Shown one piece after another: positions 1 through 26,896 of a stretch of DNA of 29,309 bases. The DNA lies in assembly GCA_910592205.1 (NCBI GenBank), contig CAJVPJ010000309.1, positions 1 through 29,309 on the forward strand, read 5' to 3'. A program made the translations under genes and the position numbers. The stretch is from Paraglomus occultum. Lineage: Eukaryota; Glomeromycota; Glomeromycetes; Paraglomerales; Paraglomeraceae. Within the stretch, counting starts at the first letter, position 1; the number at the start of each line of letters is the position of its first letter. The notes under the pieces are model-generated. The model was not told where the DNA came from. It saw only the letters and a list, made by a program, of their open reading frames with translations, and made no database searches.

Positions 1-839
1 AGATTAAAAAAACAATTGCTTCTTTGGGCTATGAAAATAGTCTTAAATACTGAATAAAAGTTGGTAATAATAATGAAGGTAATATTTTTATTTGACTGGG
101 AAAAAGAGATGAGGAAATAATTAACATAAATGGCGGCGGCGAACTTCAAATTTCTATTAATCGCAAAGATTTAGAAAATTATAGCACTGGTAGTTATAGC
201 AGAGGAGAAACAATTTTTTGGAAGGACTTAGATAATCAGCAACTCGCTAGTGAGTTATTAGAAATGAGGATAAATCCTTTTTGACATTTAGTTAATGGTG
301 GTGGAAAGAAAGGAGCCATTTCTGTTTATGACGATCACCAAGTAGGTTTTACTCAAATTCCTGACTCTAATTTAGACTTGCCAGATAAAGAAACTTATTC
401 TTATGTTGACAATAGTCTTCCTAGCAAAAATGAACCTAGCAAAATAAATGACAATCCAAGAAAAAAACCAAACAACTATTCTGAATTAGAAAACTTAAAA
501 ACTATCTTCCAAAAATTAAATATTAGAAAAATAACTTATAAAAATGATAAATTAGTAATTGAGTTTATTAATAACCACCAATCTACTTCGGTTAAAACCA
601 CTAATAACCAAGATTACCAAACTCTTAAAAAATATTGTCAGGCACATAATAAAAATGAACTGACTTCCCAAGAATTAGGGATTGGAGTTAATAATAACTC
701 TTCTGGTTCTAGTCATAACAAAACTAATAATCACCAACTGGTAATTGGCTTAGTGGCAGGAACTATTGGGGGGGTTGTTTTAGTTAGCCTTGCCTTATTC
801 TTCGCCAAAAAGAAAAAGTCCTCTCGTAAGACAAATTAA
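1..839 (+). CDS. C-terminally membrane-anchored protein of unknown function (5' end outside window)
   Basis: The frame is open from base 3, so the start lies before the window; at least 278 residues are visible. Three in-frame TGA codons (51-53, 99-101, 282-284) are read as Trp. No known domain is recognised. The visible part is polar and rich in Asn, Ser and Lys, with a Ser/Asn linker near residues 225-240. It is followed by one hydrophobic helix of about 22 residues starting 'LVIGLVAGTIGG' and a basic tail 'KKKKSSRK'. This layout (soluble part, low-complexity linker, single C-terminal helix, basic tail) recurs in three other proteins here. The stop TAA (837-839) shares the palindrome TTAA with the stop of the convergent gene. 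A TTG at 378 could be taken for a start, but the open frame continues far upstream of it. Confidence 0.75.
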
Positions 840-9517: not shown

Positions 9518-10204
9518 TTATTTTTGCTTTCTTTTTCTGATTAAGTAAATTAATAAAATTATTATTCCAATTATCAAAAATATTACTCCACAAATGATTA
9601 AAGTTTGTTTGCCCGCTGGCTGGTTTTTTGTTGTTTGTGACTCTTGATTTAAGACTTTTTCAATTTCAGTTCATTGCTCGGGGGGGAAATAATCCTTTCT
9701 ATACATTTTGGGTGGTCTAATTATTAAGAAACCGTTTTCGCTGTATTCTATTTGGGCTGATTGGTGAAGAAGAATTGTTTGCTTATTTATTTTCTTCTCT
9801 CTCTCTCTCTCTCTGCCAACCATCATAGTAGTATTCGCCATTTCTATTTCAATTCATTTCTTTAATTTCTCATTCGTTTTTATAACGTTTAATGTTTTCG
9901 ACGAGGGCTTGTTTGGCTTCCGTTCAATCATTTTCCAGTAATTATTGTTGTAATCCTCTAAGTATTCAACTGATTTTCGGTGTCTTAATTCCTTAATTAT
10001 CTCCTCTTTTAGTTCTTGCGAAAAGACTTTTTTTCATTCTTCATTACAGTTTCCGCATAATTCAAAATCGTCTCCGTCTTTATTTTTGCCACTTTTTTTG
10101 GCAATAAATTTTTGGAGCGATTGTTTATCTCGGGAAAAAATTCCATGATAAGACATTCAAGAATTTCCTCCTTTCGAACCACAAGCATCACAAAACGTAA
10201 TCAT
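9518..10204 (-). CDS. Zinc-ribbon protein with C-terminal membrane anchor
   Basis: 228 aa, ATG 10204 to TAA 9518-9520; five TGA-coded Trp hide the frame under the standard code. The N-terminus carries two CxxC pairs, 'CDAC' (Cys5, Cys8) and 'CGNC' (Cys50, Cys53), consistent with one four-Cys zinc site. The middle is charged and helical, with 'REREREKK' encoded by a (CT)9 tract. The end is a hydrophobic helix of about 23 residues ('LIICGVIFLIIGIIILLIYL') followed by 'IRKRKQK'. There is no signal peptide. It starts 9 bases after nusG and ends 14 bases before the HAD gene, so it is a member of the rpsG-secE-nusG transcript. Function unknown; a zinc site on the same side as ribosomes could suggest nucleic-acid or protein binding, which is inference. 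Confidence 0.7.
9797..9814. repeat. (CT)9 dinucleotide tract inside the zinc-ribbon gene
   Basis: Nine CT units on the + strand (AG on the coding strand), translated as Arg-Glu-Arg-Glu-Arg-Glu. The tract currently keeps the gene in frame from zinc ribbon to membrane anchor; gain or loss of one unit would shift it. Confidence 0.9.
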
Positions 10205-13496: not shown

Positions 13497-13536
13497 TTTT
13501 TGAAAATAAGATAATAAATTTTATTAAAAAGTGAAT

Positions 13537-14502
13537 ATGGAAAGCATGAAACTTTACTTCTGTCCGACTCGCTTCCGATTTTCTAATGACCCAGCTTCTT
13601 GTTGAGAAGAGGGCAGAGAATATTTAATTTGTTTTTCGGCTAGTCAAAATTTAGGAAGTTTAACTTTTTCTGACGGTGTTTGAACTCGTTTATTAGTTCC
13701 AAAAGATAATTCGAATTTTAGTAAGCAAATTAAGGAGGTAATTGATAAAAAGGAAGTAGAAGGAGACTTTTTCGCCACTCCTTTTACTAACCTCGAATTT
13801 AAACCTCATTTTAGCCAAAAAGTAGATAAGGAATATAAAGGAGATGCCTTATTAATCAAGGACCCTAGTCAAGTGGAAAAATTAACTGAAACTAGGAACA
13901 TCAAATCGTCCTCGCCTTATCAAATTACTTTTAAGGTAGTAAAACAGCAAAAAGAGGGTTATGGAGAGGAAAAAGGAAGACCATTAACTTATGAAGAAAG
14001 TTTTTCGAGGCATGGTGATTATAGACATATTCTAGAAATTGAACCATTAGACCTGGGGATAGAAGGATTACCACCGATTATTCGGTTGGTTTTTTATTTT
14101 GCTGACGAAATTAACCCGTTGGCCGCTGGCAACTATGAATTAACTAAATGCGAATTATACAAAAGTCCAGCATTAGAAAATTCAGTCGGAAAGACTTTCA
14201 CCATGGGAGTAAAAGAGTTTAGAGTTAGCAGCAAAAATAACACCTTGTCTTTTTCGACCAATTTTGAATATGAATTTGGCTCCTTGACAGAAAAGAAAAG
14301 TCAAGATAGCCCAGAAAATCCTACTAAAACCCCGCCAAAAAATGATAATTCTGGCAATCCTCCACCCAAGCCCAACCCAACCAGTCCAGAGACACTAAAA
14401 AACTCTGGAATCTTTAAAGTAGTTTTAATAGTCAGCATTATTATGGTTGGATTAATTTTTCTCGTCCTCGTTTTTTCTCATTATAAAAAAAGGAGAGGTT
14501 AA
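13537..14502 (+). CDS. C-terminally membrane-anchored protein with Pro-rich stalk
   Basis: 321 aa from ATG 13537 (ATG 13546 is also possible), with TGA-coded Trp at 13603 and 13681 that extend it 112 codons upstream of the start at 13873 seen under the standard code. N-terminus 'MESMKLYFCPTRFRF' is not a signal peptide. The body is a soluble, beta-like domain without recognised motifs. Residues about 260-290 are a Pro/Asn/Lys-rich stalk ('NPPPKPNPTSPE'), followed by one helix ('VVLIVSIIMVGLIFLVLVF') and a basic tail 'HYKKRRG'. There is no LPXTG motif. It shares layout, though not evident sequence, with the proteins at 1-839, 9518-10204 and 22375-23352. It is divergent from the tRNA pair. Confidence 0.75.
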
Positions 14503-16546: not shown

Positions 16547-18049
16547 TTAATGTCCGATTAGTATAACTAATTTCTTTTTGCTAATCTTCTCTATTTTTTG
16601 GTGAAACTCTTTTTTATTTTTTTCATCTAAGGCATTATCGGCTTCATCAAAAATAAATACTTCCTTGCTCTCGGTATCGGCAAAAAGGCGATTTAAATCA
16701 GTTCATTGTTTTTGCCCCGTCGATAAACCATTTTCGATTAAGTTTTCATGTTCGGCATAGGCTATTTTTGCCCGTCATTTTATTAAGTTTAATTCGCTTA
16801 ATTTATGATTATTATTAATAATTATTTCTCCTTGGTTAGGCTGATGTAGACCCATAATTAAACTGATTATCGTGCTTTTACCAAAACCGTTTTCTCCCAC
16901 TAAATGATTAACTTTACCCTTTTTAAACTGCAAATCCATTTTTTTCAAAATTGGCTTGTCTTTCTGGTAAGCAAAACTTACTTTTTTGAAATTTATGCTT
17001 TCAATAGGTTCGGAGACAAGAATATTTTTTTGAATGTCATCCCTTTCCGGTTGAGCGAGAAACTCATTAATTTGCTTTTGGGCGGAAAGTCCATAAGGAT
17101 AGTCCTTTAATCTCTCAATCATTTTTTTGGTTGAATCGCATAGTCCAGTTATTTTATCCACCGCTGTAAAAGTGCCTAAATCTTTAACAAAAGGTAAGAA
17201 AACAAAGCCGGTTGCTCGCACCAAAGAATAAGAGGGAATCACATAAGCCAAAGTGTAAATTCAATCCCGTTTATTAACTTTTTCATGAGTTTTATTGAGA
17301 TAAAGATGATAAGAAGCCAGCGAGGTATTAGTTAAATTTTTCTTAATAATTAAGTCGCGATTATTTACTAAAAAGTCTTCTCGTTCAGTTTCTTTTTTTA
17401 AGGCCTTTTGAAAAGGTTGGTCTTTTTTATAAACTCAATACTGAAAGAAAAAGACCACACTCAGTATCAAAAGATAATAGGCAATGCCTCATCAGATTAA
17501 GGTATGTTGATTGGTTTGTCTTCCGGCTTGATAAACAGCCACAAAAGTCATAATGGTATCTAATAAAGCATAATATATTTGGTTGGGAACGAAAATTGAT
17601 AAATAAGAAAAAGTTCGGACATTATTGGTTAAAACAGTTAAAGTTTCTTTTTTATTGTGAGAATTTTGTAAAGAAAAAAGTTTTTTGGTTAATCTTTTTT
17701 TGGCTGCTACCGCTATTTTATTAGCAAATCAATAAGCACAGTAAACGTGGGCCACCACTATCAAACAAGCAATAAAGATAACTATCAGCATTGCTGTAAT
17801 AAAGGCTGCTTGACTATTAAATTTTCATACTCCCAATAATTTGCCGAAAAATTTCCACTCGAGATTGTATTCAACCTTTCCCTCAGAAATCGCTTCCGCA
17901 ATTTTTTTAGCCACATTAGTGGAAATCACAAATGAACCTAAACAGCTTAAAGTGGTTAAAACATAAAAAAATAATTGCTCTTTTCAGCACTTTTTAGTAA
18001 TAGTGAATCAGTTTAATTTGATTGTTTTTTTATTATTTTTTCTTTCCAT
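16547..18049 (-). CDS. ABC exporter half-transporter (membrane plus ATPase domain), second of a pair
   Basis: 500 aa, ATG 18049, TAA 16547-16549; at least ten TGA-coded Trp. The N-terminal ~290 residues hold hydrophobic helices of a type I exporter. The ATPase domain starts at 'INFKKVSFAYQKDKPIL'; Walker A 'GENGFGKST', a diverged signature 'LSTGQKQ', Walker B 'VFIFDEAD' with the catalytic Glu, D-loop 'ALDEK', and switch His in 'ILIGH', after which the frame ends at once. Most homologues carry 20-40 more residues there. An AAAAGG lies only two bases before the ATG. It probably pairs with the exporter at 19441-21129. Substrate unknown; nucleoside kinase neighbours suggest a nucleotide-related cargo only by association. 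Confidence 0.88.
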
Positions 18050-18075: not shown

Positions 18076-18267
18076 CTACCAATTAATTATTAACAAATAG
18101 AGAGCCAGCAGAAAATAAACTACGCTGGCCACTAAAAAAAATATCCCTATTGGTTCAGTTCGTTGTTTCTCAGTCAAAACTGTAAAATAATTAACCACTG
18201 TGAAAAAGCAAGGCAAAAATGCCGAGACCTTTAAAACCACCTTGCCAATATTATTAACTCACTTCAT
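18076..18267 (-). CDS. Small two-TM membrane protein, overlapping the TK-GK gene
   Basis: 63 aa, ATG 18267, TAG 18076-18078, TGA-coded Trp at residue 3. Two hydrophobic helices ('VVLKVSAFLPCFFTVVNYF' and 'GIFFLVASVVYFLLALYLLI') are joined by a charged loop 'TEKQRTEP'. Its start lies inside the last codons of the fused kinase gene (14-base overlap), a sign of translational coupling, and the ABC gene begins 26 bases after its stop. Placed between kinases and transporter it might be an accessory subunit of the transporter; this is inference. Resembles the 13080 peptide only in topology. Confidence 0.6.
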
Positions 18268-19426
18268 AGTTTAATTTTTCTTTAATTTTTTGGGCTGCTT
18301 CGGTTAGACCATTTTCTTTAACCGTCAAAATATAATCAAACTCGTCCACAAATTTTCCTTCTTGTTCTTCAATAATTAATCTCCGAATAATTTCTGGTTC
18401 ACTAGTGCCCCTTTTTCTCATATGTTCGACCATTTTTTCCCTACTTTCGGCTTTAAACCAGTAAGAAGTCGTATTATAACCCTTTTCTTGACAGTATTTT
18501 TTAATTTGCTGAAAACCATCCACATCCACAATAATTACTCCGTTTTTTTTTTGGGTTCCTAAAACTAGGTCTATTACTTTCCCATGAATCCCGTAATAAT
18601 TACCGTCATAGACAACATGTTCTAAAAACCGACCTTTTTTTAATTCGTCCTCAAATTCTTCCTTGCTGATAAAATAGTAGTCTTTACCATTTACTTCTCC
18701 CTCTCGTGATGGCCGAGTAGTAGTGGAAACTAATTTGACAATATTTGGGTCCTGGGCTAATAAATTTTCTATCGTAGTTTTGCCGGTGCCACTCCCGCCT
18801 GCAATAATAATTAAAGTATTTTTATTTTCCTTTGGAGCTGTTTTTTTTACTGGTTTATAATGAAAACGGCAATAGGAACCATATTTTTCACTACCACCTA
18901 CAAAATCTTCTGGCTTTTTTGGCAATCAATTTAATTTTCAACGTTGTTTAGTACTTTTTTCAGGACAGTTTTTAATATCACATTTTCCAAATAGCCTAAT
19001 CGGGTATTCAGCGGTCGCAACTAAATGAGACACAGGCAGAAAGGGTTTATCAGCAAAGCAATCCCAGGTTAAGCCAGCTACTACTATTTCTTTATTTTTA
19101 TTAGCCAAATCATTTAGGTAAGCATTAACATCTTCTCTAAAAAAATGGATTTCATCAATATATATATTTTCAACTTGGTCTTTATACTTTTCAATATCCC
19201 AAATACTATTAATTGGAATAGCCTTAATTTTATCCTTATCATGAGAAACTATTTCAACTTCACTATATCGGTCATCCAAAGTTGGTTTAAAGGCCAAACA
19301 TTTTCGATAGTTTTTATTTTGATTGTATTTAGAAATTAGTAAACCAGTTTTACCAGAAAACATATTTCCAATTATTACAGTGACTGAACCAATTTTATGA
19401 TTATTTTTCCTATTTATTTCTTCCAT
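18254..19426 (-). CDS. Fused thymidine kinase - guanylate kinase
   Basis: 390 aa in one frame; TGA-coded Trp at codons 163 and 167 bridge what look like two genes under the standard code. Residues 1-195 are type II thymidine kinase (dT to dTMP): P-loop 'GNMFSGKT' (20-27), 'YIDEIHFF', 'TWDCFADKPFLP', and the zinc lasso Cys149, Cys154, Cys186, His189 with 'VGGSEKYGSYCRFH'. After about 15 linker residues comes guanylate kinase (GMP to GDP): P-loop 'GGSGTGKT' (210-217), 'STTTRPSREGEVNGKDYYF', 'FLEHVVYDGNYYG', 'VIIVDVDG'. Both active sites look complete. AAAGGA lies 9 bases before the ATG, one of very few Shine-Dalgarno-like sites here. It starts 14 bases after ABC transporter 2. These enzymes are normally separate; the fusion is unusual. 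Confidence 0.9.
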
Positions 19427-19440
19427 ATTTTTTATTCCTT

Positions 19441-21129
19441 TTAATTTTCTTTAACTAGTCCACGAGAAGTAAACTTGTATATCTCATCCACATATTTAAT
19501 AACTTCCTTATCATGACTAATAATGATGACCGTTTTATCTTTTAATTCCTGAAAAATAACTTTCAACATTTTTTCTTTTAACTCACTACTAATATTACTC
19601 AACGACTCGTCCAAAAGATAAATATCATAATCTCGAACGAATGCTCGCATTAAACTAACCAGTTGTTTTTGACCTTCGGAGAGATTTTGTCCTTTTTCCG
19701 CAATAGTAGTTTCTCAACGCTTTGGCAATTTATCAATAAAACCTTTAATTCCTAACTTTTTAGCAATATTTTCTAGTTTTTGCTGGTGAATATTTTCCTG
19801 GTAAGGTTCGGGATAAATTATATTATCTCCCAAACTGGTATTAAAAAAAGAGGGATTATTAGGCAAATAAACAATTCTTTCCCGCAGGGCTGAATTATTA
19901 ACTTTTCCCAACTTGGTATCATCTAATTTGATAAATCCTTGCTGGGGTTGGTAAAGTTTAACAATTAATTTAAATAAAGTACTTTTTCCGACTCCGTTTG
20001 GCCCAACAATTACATATTTTTTCCCCTTTTGAAAAGTGAAAGAAAAGTTATCAAGTATTTTTTTGTTAGTTTCGGGGTAAATAAAACTGACATTTTGAAA
20101 ACTAATATCAGGATTTTTTGCTGGCAAAGTTTTTTGAGAAGTTTTGGCAGGAAAGTCAGAATTTTTTTCTAAAATAGCAAAGGCATTATTTAACTGATTG
20201 ACACTAGAACGATAAGTATCATATCCCCCAAAGGCCCACAGCATTTCAAAGAGTTTTTTTCATCGGTCAAATAGTTTGTCTAATAAAAGATATAGAGCAA
20301 TCCAAAAGCCACTATTCTCCACAAAGAAAAACAAAAGAACAACCGGCATATACTTTAGCAAAACGTAATTGGGGAGGGTGCCATAAAGTGATTTCGAAAG
20401 AGCAAGAGGAAAAAGGCTTTTAGTATCTTTAGCAAATGTTTTTTTGCTTTTTTGAATTTCAGTTTTTTCTGCTCCAGTAATTTTAATATATTCGAGATTA
20501 CTTTTTACTTCTTCAAAATGTTTGTTTTCTTTTTGAATAGTCCTATTTCTTCGTTTTCTATATCAGTAAGATAATTGATAAAGTAAGACTGCTACCACTG
20601 TAAGAAAGACGAGAGCCAGAAATATCCAAGGTATAAAAGTTCTTTGTTTCTTGTCTTTTCCGATTTGTCAGAACAGTAATATTATCGAGATTGCCGAGTA
20701 AAAACAACGATTGAAAATTTGGGCTGCCTTACTTCCGACGATAGTTGCATCGCTTTCATAATTGCTTAAAATGAACTTGGCTTTTTGAGTTTGGGAGAAA
20801 TTAGCCTTTAAATATTTTTGGGCCAATCGGGACCGCAAATGAGAACTATATAATTCCCCCAAGTATTCTCCGAAGGCAATGTGGATATAAACAATAATTC
20901 CAAAAAGTATTAATCGAATCACTATTTCTAGTCAATTACTTTTGACATAATACCAGTTGCCAGCCTTGATAATATCACCTATTCCTCCTAATATCTTAAC
21001 ATTAATAAAGGCACTTAAAAACCCAAATAAATAATGAAGAGAAGTTTGGGGAGTAAACTGGCGAAACAAATAAAACCAACTAACCTTGGTTTTGTCCTTT
21101 TTGGGTGATTTATATTGATTATTTGGCAT
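19441..21129 (-). CDS. ABC exporter half-transporter, first of a pair
   Basis: 562 aa, usual for a half-exporter; frame verified open across all TGA codons. N-terminal ~320 residues form the membrane domain ('SLHYLFGFLSAFINVKILGG' near TM1; 'GEYLGELYSSHLRSRLAQKY' resembles the conserved cytosolic coupling region). ATPase domain: 'ISFQNVSFIYPETNKKIL', Walker A 'GPNGVGKST', Q-loop region 'VYLPNNPSFFNTSLGDNI', signature 'LSEGQKQ', Walker B 'IYLLDES' with catalytic Glu, switch His in 'IIISHD'. All motifs intact. Its ATG lies inside the end of the TMPK-NUDIX gene (11-base overlap). Likely forms a heterodimer with the exporter at 16547-18049. Confidence 0.9.
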
Positions 21130-22171
21130 ATTTTTTTAATTTCTTGATTTTTTCTAAATAAAATTGGAAAGCACTATCCTCCCCACCTGTTTTTTCAGAA
21201 TTAGCAGTCATAAACTTAATGTCTAATATTTTTTCTACTTCTTTATTCTGAATTTCGCCAGAGTATTTATTTGCTTGAAAAAAATATCCTTTTCAATTCT
21301 GATTACCTTTTGGTAAGTTAGCATAAAAGACATTTTCCTCCGCAATTTTCTCCAGATTTTCCACTACTAAATTAGTTTCTTCAAATACTTCCCTTTTGGC
21401 AGCACTTTCTGGGCTTTCGTTCAACTCTATTTTGCCACCTGGAAAATTCCAGCCTCACTTTTTATCTTTTACCAACAAAAACTCCCCTTTTTCATTTTGG
21501 ATAACTACACGAACAAACTGGGGCAAAGCGGCTTCATTTTTTGGCAAATAAGTCTGCTTAATTATGCCCTGAACTTCGGCTAAAATTTCTTCTTCCTGTC
21601 TGTCGGCATTCACGATATAAATTCTTTCGGGAAAGATTTTTTTCAGTTCCAAATAATAATTTCTAATTCTATGGTGAAATTCCAGTTTTAAATTATCTCA
21701 ATTAGTATATTCACCAGTGGCTAATTTTCTTTTTTTTAGTCTTTGTTGGGCTTGTTGGGGGTCAATATCTAAAATAAAAGTAATATCAGGTAAGGGCAAG
21801 TTAATGGTTTTTCTCGCAATTTCTTGGACAACATTAACTCCTAATCCTCCTTCTAGTCCCTGATAAACAAAAGTGCTATCAATGTATCTATCAATGATTA
21901 CCACTTTATTTTTTTGGAAACTCGGTTTAATTACTTTTCCATTTAATTCGTCAAAGGCTGAAAAAATAAGGAAAATATAAGTTCAGGTGCTTGGCAAACT
22001 ATTTTTCCCCTCGGCTCGGGACTCATTAAGTAAGTGTCAGATTTTTTGTCCTAATTCAGTATCTCGTCAATTATGAGTTATTAGGTCTAATTCGCCACTT
22101 TTTTGAAGATTTTTAATGAGAGTAGTTTTGCCACTTCCGTCTATTCCTTCCAGGGTGATTAGCAATGACAT
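21119..22171 (-). CDS. Fused thymidylate kinase - NUDIX hydrolase
   Basis: 350 aa in one frame; TGA-coded Trp link the parts. Residues 1-200 are thymidylate kinase (dTMP to dTDP): P-loop '[11 protein letters not shown]' (7-17), '[12 protein letters not shown]' (94-105), LID region '[12 protein letters not shown]'. The usual 'TREPGG' is missing, leaving 'HNWRDTELGQ'. From about 215: NUDIX domain with '[20 protein letters not shown]' and box G246-x5-E252-x7-R260-E261-V-F-E264-E265-T-N-L (Gly at the penultimate position replaced by Asn). NUDIX enzymes hydrolyse nucleoside diphosphate derivatives, for example oxidised dNTPs. First gene of the seven-gene array; a 12-bp palindrome lies 35-46 bases upstream. 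Most thymidylate kinases are single-domain. Confidence 0.88.
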
Positions 22172-22374: not shown

Positions 22375-23352
22375 ATGAAAGGCGAAGAAAGTAATAGAGA
22401 CAAAAAAGAGGTGGAATATGCTCGTAAAGAAATGTTGGAGGAAAACAGATACTATGGAGGAGGTAAGTTACCTTTTGATTTAACTGGCCCAGAAAAAAAT
22501 ATCGTCAAAGACTCAGTTTTAGATACTTGTAGTTCTTTGGCAAAAGTTATTTCTTTAATCGAGGAGTTGAGGAGAGCAAACAACTGAAATAATTATTTGA
22601 ATAGTTTTAGTTCGGCTGCTTCTTCTTGCTTAGCAAGTTTAAAAGAGTTTCGCAATGCTCCTCGTGAAAGCGACAAAGGAAAATGTGCTCAAGCCGCCAA
22701 GAATAACAATGATTTACTAACCAAAGCTATTAATTTAGTTCAACCGAAATATTTAGCCAAAAGTCAAGAATTAAGGAATCTGGTAATTAATAGTTTAGAA
22801 TGATGAATTTTGGACCATTCATATTTAAGAAATAACAAGCCTAAGCAATTGCGTCAAGAAGAAATTAGAGAAATTGGTGTGGGTTACTTAGCTCCAGAAC
22901 ACTTTCAAGAAATCAGAAATTTGATGATAAAAGATATTAAAGAAACAGCGACCGATTGAAAAATAGCAAAAAGTGTGGGTTGACTGGACGAAAAAACAGG
23001 AGAGGAATGGTATGTAGAATTAGTATTACAAAATATCAAAAAACCGCACCGAAGATTTAATATAAGAACTTTTACTGAACGGGAATGAGAAGAAATTAAG
23101 CAAGTAGTTAAAAATCATCAATGTAAAGAGCAGGAAGAGGAATATTTAAGACAGGGACGCTGAGGAGAGCCAGACTTACCTCCCATTCCTCCCAAAACTC
23201 CCGAAAACAGTCAAAATAAAAATAACCAAGTCCAACCGAATGGGGGAAAACTATTTAGCCAAAATACTCTTTTTCTGATAGTGGGGAGTATTGTCCTAAT
23301 AGTAATAGTCGGTATTTGAGTAATTTATCGAAAAAGAAGGAAAAATAGTTAA
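22375..23352 (+). CDS. C-terminally membrane-anchored helical protein
   Basis: 325 aa, ATG 22375, TAA 23350-23352; nine or so TGA-coded Trp break it into short pieces under the standard code. The N-terminal part is helical and charged ('MKGEESNRDKKEVEY'), without signal peptide; a middle segment is Trp-rich. Residues about 265-295 are a Pro/Asn/Gln stalk ('PDLPPIPPKTPENSQ'), then one helix ('TLFLIVGSIVLIVIVGIWVIY') and a basic tail 'RKRRKNS'. Same layout as three other proteins in the window. Its stop shares TTAA with the convergent RuvC-like gene. Function unknown. Confidence 0.75.
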
Positions 23353-24238: not shown

Positions 24239-26896
24239 TTATTTGAAACCAGGAACGCCGTAAGCAGATTGTTGAACAATGTTTGCCTGTTGTTCTAGGT
24301 TCTTCATTTCTATTTCTTCCTTATCTAAAAGACTGACATGCGAAGAAGTCAAAGAAGCAACACTTGTTTGTTCACTCTCCACATTAACTGCTAATCATTG
24401 TTGGGAAGATTCTGGTTCGATGGATTCAAATTCCCTGGTTTTTTTCTCTTTTTCTGTTCCCTCTACTTCTTTGGAGAATTCTTCTACATTTTCTTCTTCA
24501 ATTAAAGAACCTCTTTTTTTATAGTCAACCACTTTGTCTTCAAGTAGTTTTATAGACTCAACAATTCCTCATGAACGGCTTTCTTTTTTGTCCTTGGCTA
24601 AATCTTTGGCTAGTTCTGTTCTTTTTTCAATCAATTCGCTAATATCTACTTCTTTGTTATGGTTTTCATCATATATCTCTAAAAACTCATCGGCTTTTTC
24701 ATTTAAGTCTTTTAACGCCTTGTTTACTTTTCCTAAATCAGAACCCATGCCAAGTTTTTTAATTATTCCTAATAGTTCATGATAATTGTCCAAAAACGTG
24801 TCAGCATCATTTAAGAATTCTTTTCATTTTTCCTCCCTCTTGGTGTAATAATTCTCCTCAATTTGAGAAGCAATCGCATCAATAAGAGGAGAGGCGGCAG
24901 CGAGAGAGCCTCCAGCTGTCGCTTGATCGGTTAAAGCTAAAATACCACCCGTGACCGCAGCAGCGCGGGCAATTCATTTTACGCCACCGAGATAGCGAAA
25001 TTTACTGTATTGTTCGGGAGATTGGAGTTTGCTTAACTCATTGCCTGGCTCGCCTTCGTCTGTTTTTCCTCATTTGTTAAGAAACTGCTTGAGGTTGCTG
25101 CGAATAACAAATAACCTTTCTAAGGGAATGGCGGAAGCGGTGATGTTATTTTGCTTGTCTGTTCTCCATTTGTCAAGGCTGTAATATTTTTTGCTAGCCG
25201 ATTTCGAATCTTCTTTTTCTTCTACCAGACATCTACTTTTATCCAGTTCTTCCATGATTTTGGTGGATTGGTGAGGATAATTACTATTGCAGTAAACTTT
25301 TTTGCAACTCTCTGGTAAGTACTCTAATCCTTCCTTTAGGCTGGTATTACTAATGCTTAATCATTCTAACTTATTCAAACTTTCGAGAGGCTTTAAACTT
25401 CCTTCAAATGGGCAATTGCTAATGTCTGAATACTTTAACTCTTTCAGAGAAATCAAAACTTTTAAGTCTTGTGAAAGATTTGGATTGTTATCGCATTTAA
25501 GTTCGACTAGACTTTGGCAATCACCTAAATTAAAACTAGTTAACTTGTTGCCAGAGCAACTTAATTTCTTTAAGTTAGTAAACCCTTTTAATCTTAATCT
25601 TCCGGCTAAATTTTGCTGACTAAGGTCTAATTTAGTAATTTCTACTCTTTTTTTACCTTTATTATTTCAGTCGCCACTACCGTCCCAACCTTCATCGGCT
25701 GTTTCTCTTTGGCATTCCCCTCTTTGTGGATAATTTTCTTCTAATCATTGGTCTAATAATTTCTGATTGTCATCAGGCTTATTAACAAAATCTTTGTATT
25801 TCTTTAAATCATGATTGAAACATTCCCAGTCTTCTTGAATGACTTTTACTTTTGCCTGTTTCCTTTTGTCTGCTTCACAAGAAAAAACTTTAATATTTTC
25901 TGGTAAATATTCTAATCCATCATCAATGTCAGTGCTGCTAATATCTAAATATTCCAGTTTTCCCAGATTTTGTAAGGGCTCTAAAGAGCCAGTAAATCGA
26001 TTATAAACTCCTTGATTAATCTTTATTTGATTGTGATTGCCTATTTTTAATTCCCTCAAATTAACACTTTTTCCAAAAACAGAGCAATCCTGGGAAAGGA
26101 AATTGTTATTTTCGGCATACAAATAAGTTAACTGTTTAGTTTGAAGAGGAGAAAGAGCCAAATATTCCAAATAGTTATCGCCACACCTAAGACCTTCTAA
26201 TTTACCCGAGTTAGTTAAGTCAAGAGTAGTTAATTGGTTATTATTACAATTAAGCATTCTTAGTTGTCGACAATTATTAAGTTTTAAACTAGTTAATTTA
26301 TTGCCTCAACAATCTAATATTTCTAGATTTAAAAAATCAGATAGGTCTAAAGAACCGGTTAAGTTTTTGTTCTTGACATCCAGTATTTTTATTGACTTTC
26401 TTTTTGGTTTAAGATAGCAAAAGTTCAAATAGTCCTCGGCTAGCACGCTTGTCCGCCAATCATTAAATTCTTTTCTTAACTGGTCTAAGTTAAATTGTTG
26501 TTGGACATAATTCTTGTTTCTTAAATAAGCCGCGAACTCGTAGTCAACGGGTTGCAATCCCACTTCCAACCATTCTTTAATCTGTTCGTAAGTAAAGCCA
26601 ATATTTTGTCACTGGAAGGCAAATTCAGAAGTAATACCGGCGTTTTTTCATCGAGTATATTCTTCTCTCAGTTCTTTTATTTTTTTAGCAATTTTTTCAT
26701 CTGGTCAGCCTACTAATGAACCAGAGCCATAAAAATAATAGCCTTGGTAATATAAATAGTTAGCAAAATCGGCTTCTTGGGGTTCTATATTTTTATCAAT
26801 ATATCCTTTGCAATCATAATAATCAAAACCTCGGTCTTCTCATTCTTTTTGCAACTCACTAGTGAAATCAGGATGAATATCTTTTCAGTCGATCAT
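24239..26896 (-). CDS. Large leucine-rich-repeat protein
   Basis: 885 aa in one frame once TGA is Trp (checked open through the whole span). Residues 1-160 contain at least two copies of a helical motif with a 'W..xGF....' and '..L.P.d.eFA.YL' pattern (compare 'WEDRGFDYYD' with 'WQNIGFTYEQ'). A first LRR block (about 165-345) has 'NLTGSLDLSDFLNLEILDC', 'NNQLTTLDL' and ends 'DIDDGLEYLPENIKVFSC'; a second (about 415-535) repeats the scheme with 'NLAGRLRLKGFTNLKKLSC' and 'GLEYLPESCKKVYC'. Then comes a charged region, an Ala/Gly-rich hydrophobic segment near 630-660 and a helical C-terminus. No signal peptide. LRRs bind proteins; the style recalls endobacterial and fungal proteins of mycorrhizal systems (from memory). 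Confidence 0.85.

Follow-up and report, generated by a model that had tools for sequence, protein, structure and literature searches.

The window analysed here, a stretch of 29,309 bases that spans all of contig C309 in an assembly of 32.3 Mb and 1408 contigs, encodes a type II thymidine kinase (TK) joined to a guanylate kinase (GK) in one reading frame. We propose that this TK-GK protein is probably a one-chain bifunctional nucleotide-salvage enzyme of a Mycoplasma-related endobacterium (MRE) and represents one state of a labile architecture. The gene offers a case of fast change in domain architecture around near-universal housekeeping kinases in minimal genomes.

Translation of the gene with code 4 gave a single frame containing two TGA codons (Table 1). 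The Pfam TK family (PF00265) matches residues 13-190 with 109.8 bits (gathering cut-off 20.6, E 1.8e-31, profile positions 1-176 of 176), and the Guanylate_kin family (PF00625) matches residues 203-386 with 109.7 bits (gathering cut-off 25.2, E 1.8e-31, profile positions 2-180 of 182), so the single-chain code-4 frame that had been put forward by a sequence-only reading is borne out by translation and domain search. Two complete Pfam domains and five further full-length homologues of the same architecture show that the frame did not arise by chance. Scores against the NCBIfam families NF003296 (thymidine kinase, 140.1 bits, curated cut-off 183) and TIGR03263 (guanyl_kin, 125.7 bits, curated cut-off 160.45) fall below the curated cut-offs, indicating that both kinases are divergent. 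The linker contains no ATG, GTG or TTG codon in frame, and TTG 168 is the only such in-frame codon within residues 150-214.

Table 1. Coordinates of the TK-GK gene, its parts, its neighbours and GK fusions in other genomes (window positions unless a locus is named)
Feature	Position	Strand	Remarks
TK-GK fusion gene	18254..19426	-	390 aa, ATG to TAA, code 4
N-terminal leader, residues 1-12	19391..19426	-	
Type II thymidine kinase domain, residues 13-190	18857..19390	-	Pfam and alignment
Linker, residues 191-202	18821..18856	-	pLDDT about 58
Guanylate kinase domain, residues 203-386	18269..18820	-	Pfam and alignment
Shine-Dalgarno-like AAAGGA	19436..19441	-	9 nt upstream of the TK-GK ATG; read from sequence
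TGA codon 163	18938..18940	-	in frame, Trp
TGA codon 167	18926..18928	-	in frame, Trp
Thymidylate kinase-NUDIX (TMPK-NUDIX) protein	21119..22171	-	350 aa; same gene run as TK-GK
ABC transporter protein	19441..21129	-	ABC_tran over cut-off; membrane domain match below cut-off
Second ABC ATPase gene	16547..18049	-	204 nt after TK-GK
RsmD (PF03602, 16S rRNA methyltransferase family)-GK	L141, 1030-2199		genome G016; code 4
CTP_transf_like (CoaD-like cytidylyltransferase)-GK	L148, 1132-2196	-	genome G011; one frame
GK-PP2C phosphatase	L153, 871-2175	+	genome G013; no intervening stop

Reading of TGA as Trp is supported for the genes of the window, 14 of which together carry 61 in-frame TGA codons and 32 TGG codons. 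In alignments with PDB sequences, TGA codon 181 of TyrRS faces Trp (the three chains being variants of one enzyme), as does TGA codon 248 of AsnRS in 3/3 alignments, and TGA codon 334 of AsnRS faces Trp in two of three and Tyr in the third; TGA codons at TyrRS 365 and AsnRS 111 face residues other than Trp, and those of the thymidylate kinase lie at unconserved places. The two TGA codons of TK-GK had been described as sitting exactly in the join. This proved wrong: codons 163 and 167 lie inside the zinc lobe of the TK, between C149/C154 and C186/H189 and 24-28 residues ahead of the linker. Residue 163 is Trp wherever its column is filled in TKs of this type, namely in six of six TK-GKs (window included) and three of three stand-alone TKs, and both positions are Trp in 9/9 covering TKs of this type, again counting the window and with most of them decoded with code 4; the canonical TK of P0010 has Arg at the position of residue 163.

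Five other full-length TK-GKs (P0002-P0006, from NCBI, JGI and ENA) are 76-90% identical to the window protein (75-90% by BLASTP), and they have the same domain order and a similar leader and linker, which makes the window protein a member of this MRE group. The same architecture had been suggested as something to look for in other genomes, and it is already present in databases; one public source calls P0004 'guanylate kinase/thymidine kinase'. We found no paper describing the fusion among the open-licence literature listed, and term searches in PMC10507103, PMC11423566 and PMC11535214 gave no pointer to it. The earlier view that this order of the two kinases is uncommon agrees with our genome searches: among the matches listed, none covers both kinases in 320 genomes of the order or in 395 genomes of the class. 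Some TK matches in the 320 order genomes extend to residue 203-236; those inspected run across a TAG or TAA stop without covering the GK. Of 365 relatives on genome contigs, the 80 kept (identity 41% or less, no record titled as MRE) include no frame in which a motif filter sees both kinases, and on viral contigs the five matching loci match on the GK side alone.

Two explanations would do away with the single chain. If TGA, or part of it, acted as a stop at codons 163 and 167, two polypeptides would be made and the GK would initiate at TTG 168, which follows the second TGA directly and in frame; the 222-residue P0009 starts at the residue matching the one after the second TGA-encoded Trp. This start is what a standard-code call would give, and it lends some support to the expectation that standard-code annotation would split the gene. 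We consider the two-polypeptide explanation very unlikely, given the TGA codons inside the 14 window genes (three of them opposite Trp in solved homologues), the loss of half of the TK zinc site that a stop at codon 163 would entail, and the Trp pair in the nine covering TKs, most of which are decoded with code 4. An assembly or sequencing artefact at the join, which could be imagined for a gene seen on a single contig, is largely refuted by P0002-P0006, which come from other sources with the same architecture and a similar linker, and hardly deserves any credence.

In three Gigasporaceae assembly proteins (P0010, P0012 and P0013) the partner of an MRE GK is a different, canonical TK, and the linker between them has MPNNQ or MPNKQ, resembling the start of the window ABC gene (MPNNQ at 21129). 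These joins could be a real third fusion or an artefact of gene calling, and the three proteins were left out of the main tree because their fungal gene calls seem to splice round TGA.

The TK-GK gene appears to belong to an MRE, judging from TGA read as Trp and from nearest proteins that come from MRE genomes. The closest proteins are metagenome proteins and proteins of MREs ('Candidatus Moeniiplasma', RC_NB112A) and of Paraglomus, Funneliformis, Gigaspora and Cetraspora assemblies; among the matches listed, the named nearest ones are Candidatus Moeniiplasma, RC_NB112A, RV_VA103A and GvMRE, and many closer ones are metagenome proteins. TK-GK is the sole TK and the sole unsplit GK found in the 32-Mb assembly, the other two GK matches lying in pieces on contig C73, as an intron-containing host gene would. 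PMC11423566 reports MRE contigs hidden within Mucoromycota assemblies; from this report, together with other GK and thymidylate kinase genes of the assembly, which are split, we infer that a fungus is the most likely host of the MRE. A single bacterial 16S turned up, on contig C537 (five of 208 candidates were scored). In fungal assemblies that bear endobacteria, such fusions may be broken, or invented, by gene callers that use the standard code or are built for eukaryotes. The gene is part of a same-strand run consisting of the TMPK-NUDIX, ABC transporter, TK-GK and second ABC ATPase genes, in which the ABC transporter gene overlaps the TMPK-NUDIX gene by 11 nt and ends 14 nt before TK-GK.

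The TK part resembles TK1-like type II enzymes (PF00265; solved as 2ja1, 1xx6 and 2b8t) in its full-length domain, P-loop, DE motif and Cys/His zinc site, with a best PDB sequence match of 95.2 bits over residues 13-194. It differs from them by AGLT in place of AGLD (AGLT in MRE TKs of this type, AGLD in 9/9 other TKs), by the CX4C spacing in the first half of the zinc site, by Trp 163/167 in the zinc lobe, which it has in common with its MRE relatives and the divergent TK-GK P0159, and by its fusion to a GK. The P-loop (residues 20-27) and zinc site (ligands 149, 154, 186 and 189) expected of a type II TK were located by alignment: P-loop residues G20, K26 and T27, H62 and DE 91-92 are kept in all seven MRE TK-GKs compared (window included), and the zinc ligands and Y182 in the six that fill these columns. 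The GK part is likewise a full-length Gmk domain (PF00625, TIGR03263; 6wct, 1gky) with a P-loop (210-217), the GMP-binding motifs TTR..R..E and Y-Y-G that had been predicted for it, and an RGT lid; residues K216, R238, R241, E244, Y250, E269, Y278, R339 and R349 are kept in 7/7 MRE TK-GKs, window included. It differs from Gmk by its C-terminal fused position and by His for the first lid Arg: position 335 is His in 7/7 TK-GKs and His or Asn in 18/18 stand-alone MRE GKs, compared with Arg in 16/17 generic GKs. Position 299 is, less strictly, Ile or Val in MRE GKs and is variable in generic ones. Such substitutions in the MRE TK and GK may alter kinetics; T120, I299 and H335 also occur in stand-alone MRE TKs or GKs and are therefore not tied to the fusion.

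Both domains are confidently predicted in an AlphaFold2 model of TK-GK (57 alignment rows; mean pLDDT 88.8, pTM 0.58), in which the linker is loose and the zinc lobe at 161-180 is modelled poorly. A Foldseek search with this model retrieved the GKs 6wct/1gky and the TKs 2ja1/1xx6 and no unexpected fold among the best 50 matches listed; the TM-scores of about 0.4 by query length are expected of a two-domain chain.

The GK was found with changing partners among MRE-like proteins. The protein searches gave 28 matches in one case, and the best 120 of 284 and the best 120 of 1180 were used in the others; the resulting lists of architectures are not frequencies, assignment of unnamed proteins to MREs rests on similarity, and the architectures of relatives rest on database protein calls. 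TK-GK is represented at full length by P0001-P0006, by the GK-side fragments with TK ends P0009 and P0011, and in fungal assemblies by P0007, P0008, P0010, P0012 and P0013. The matches listed also include TK alone (P0147, P0153 and P0155), GK alone (P0142-P0146, P0148-P0152, P0154, P0156-P0158 and P0160-P0167) and TMPK-NUDIX-GK (P0014-P0017 and P0019, the fragment P0018 and the fungal-called P0020, P0022 and P0025). In the TMPK-NUDIX-GK proteins P0014-P0017 and P0019, the GK domain is 68-82% identical to that of the window and is joined to a thymidylate kinase-NUDIX protein, whereas the window GK is joined to a TK. TMPK-NUDIX stands alone in 31 of the 39 rows of the TMPK-NUDIX tree, and P0031-P0033 (Pfam run on P0031 and P0032) carry a second TMPK at the C-terminal end, the place that GK takes in other MREs.

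The main GK tree comprises 29 rows (eight TK-GK, six TMPK-NUDIX-GK and 15 GK alone), keeping the fragments P0009, P0011 and P0018. It leaves out 17 of the 46 non-outgroup rows of a 50-row tree, namely the fungal-called P0007, P0008, P0010, P0012, P0013, P0020, P0021, P0022 and P0024, the divergent P0159, and the stand-alone GKs P0149-P0152 and P0156-P0158, which were judged to have a possibly truncated start or, for P0157, to come from a fungal assembly; P0023 and P0025 are in neither tree. The best 29-row tree has seven architecture changes among three labels (shuffled mean 12.3), and the 50-row tree has 18 changes among seven labels. AU tests on the 29-row tree reject a single clade of TK-GK (p 0.0023), of TMPK-NUDIX-GK (p 0.00058) and of GK alone (p 1.4e-7). 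Of its 26 inner branches, six carry a star and 12 are open, and the starred branches alone force one change for TK-GK and two for each of the other labels; a single origin of TK-GK thus fails the AU test, but well-supported branches do not contradict it. The TMPK-NUDIX tree, whose bootstrap is not settled, has six changes: GK is attached at three points, two of them forced by starred branches, and a second TMPK also at three, one of them so forced; the three separate places of P0031-P0033 on the best tree are weakly supported.

The clearest view of these steps comes from a sister pair. P0048 and P0049, TMPK-NUDIX proteins lacking GK, appear to come from genomes that have TK-GK (P0005 and P0006; P0006 and P0049 are both from RC_NB112A), and they are sisters (99/95) of P0014/P0015, TMPK-NUDIX proteins that carry GK; P0005/P0006 and P0014/P0015 adjoin in the GK tree (69/92). 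This placement implies that GK switched partner, or fused twice, between sister groups, and recombination between MREs could mimic such switching. The joining of TK and GK therefore looks real but evolutionarily labile, and the leader common to several proteins, together with a sister pair with different GK partners, makes the fusion and fission steps traceable.

The leader bears on the possible origin of the join. Its first 11 residues (MEEINRKNNHK) closely resemble the starts of P0144, P0145 and P0148, GKs without a TK that begin with MEEINRKSNHK or MEEVNRKSNHK, and are absent from the three stand-alone TKs, so that the TK stands between the leader of a GK gene and its core. Either the TK was inserted into a GK gene or it was cut out in frame from a fusion, and the tree favours neither. 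Deletion between two ATAAAA copies (gene nt 29 and 602) would yield the N-terminus MEEINRKNNHKNTLIII; apart from two leader residues, this agrees with the solo GKs P0144/P0148. The direct repeat itself was dismissed as evidence, since 36% of random stretch pairs from the gene share an in-frame 6-mer.

Other Mollicutes also have GK fusions. P0159, from a Logan source, is a divergent TK-GK; its TK groups as the sister of the MRE TKs of this type (100/99), and its GK falls outside the MRE GKs on long branches, a placement that is unsure; among the matches listed, none covers both of its domains in 395 class or 317 order genomes. The 400-kb Mollicutes genome G016 has four places matching thymidine kinase, and PMC11535214 reports four TK copies in Oceanoplasmataceae and names that group as the closest relatives of Moeniiplasma. 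The RsmD-GK fusion of G016 depends on code 4, as TGA codon 184 lies near the RsmD/GK junction, and a PP2C-like gene follows it. Eight further GK regions were inspected, seven of them picked for long frames and one (in genome G307) as ordinary, which is not a systematic sample. The CTP_transf_like-GK frame has a single TGA at codon 230, inside GK and away from the junction; the GK-PP2C frame has none at its junction, and an in-frame ATG nearby makes separate initiation possible. GK regions L149-L151 have C-terminal extensions of about 100 aa, L152 gave no frame by the motif filter, and no added domain was seen by eye in L154 and L156.

In the proposed pathway, the N-terminal type II TK would convert thymidine to dTMP, the tethered C-terminal GK would convert (d)GMP to (d)GDP, and the dTMP would pass to the TMPK-NUDIX protein, whose gene lies two genes upstream within the same-strand run. 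We predict translation as a single chain, activity of both kinases and a TK oligomer displaying GKs. In this lineage the GK has probably been repeatedly joined to and separated from thymidine-nucleotide enzymes, perhaps via in-frame deletion or insertion, with little constraint on its partner. The TK and GK reactions share no intermediate, and channelling between them is therefore not expected. Fixed stoichiometry, which had been suggested as the purpose of the fusion, is argued against by close relatives that carry the same GK alone or on thymidylate kinase-NUDIX. With no common substrate and a readily changing partner, both stoichiometry and channelling are weak explanations; a better fit is a fusion of neighbours within a compact genome that is either tolerated or of mild use, and it may be selectively neutral or mildly advantageous through co-expression or genome compaction.

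An adaptive link between dT and dG is conceivable since both GK carriers in MRE proteins are dT-nucleotide kinases (TK or TMPK-NUDIX, among the matches listed). The fusion would then couple dT and dG supply for dNTP balance or co-localise salvage kinases, with exchange keeping the GK on a dT-making enzyme, and the divergent P0159 likewise joins TK to GK. Stand-alone GKs are nevertheless common among close relatives, and the partners that GK has in other Mollicutes, RsmD, a CoaD-like domain or PP2C, have no known dT role; we regard such an adaptation as unlikely. A broader form, in which the GK of strongly reduced Mollicutes is a roaming module, gained and lost time and again as a fused domain, that switches between TK and TMPK-NUDIX carriers in fungal endobacteria and so keeps a (d)GMP kinase on dT-making enzymes to balance dT and dG, is a tentative idea that we doubt somewhat less. 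Free exchange of partners might also be expected if the GK were catalytically altered or a pseudo-kinase module with, for example, a regulatory or scaffolding role, as could be read from His for the lid Arg equivalent in all seven MRE TK-GKs compared and from Ile/Val 299 where many generic GKs carry an acid or Gln. This is distinctly improbable: most other GK motif residues examined are kept, similar substitutions occur in stand-alone MRE GKs, no second bacterial-type GK was found in the assembly, and a GK above the family cut-off is present in 309 of 317 genomes of the order. Our preferred reading remains the one-chain bifunctional salvage enzyme with a labile architecture.

Elsewhere in the window, 24239-26896 (-) encodes an 885-aa leucine-rich-repeat protein carrying 14 TGA codons; LRR domains of MREs are reported as transfers from fungal hosts in PMC10507103. 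Several unrelated-looking proteins (window 3-839, 9518-10204, 13531-14502 and 22375-23352, and L158 7598-8824) have at their ends one hydrophobic stretch and then basic residues, resembling tail-anchored or surface proteins, and the same ending occurs on contig C537, the carrier of the bacterial 16S.
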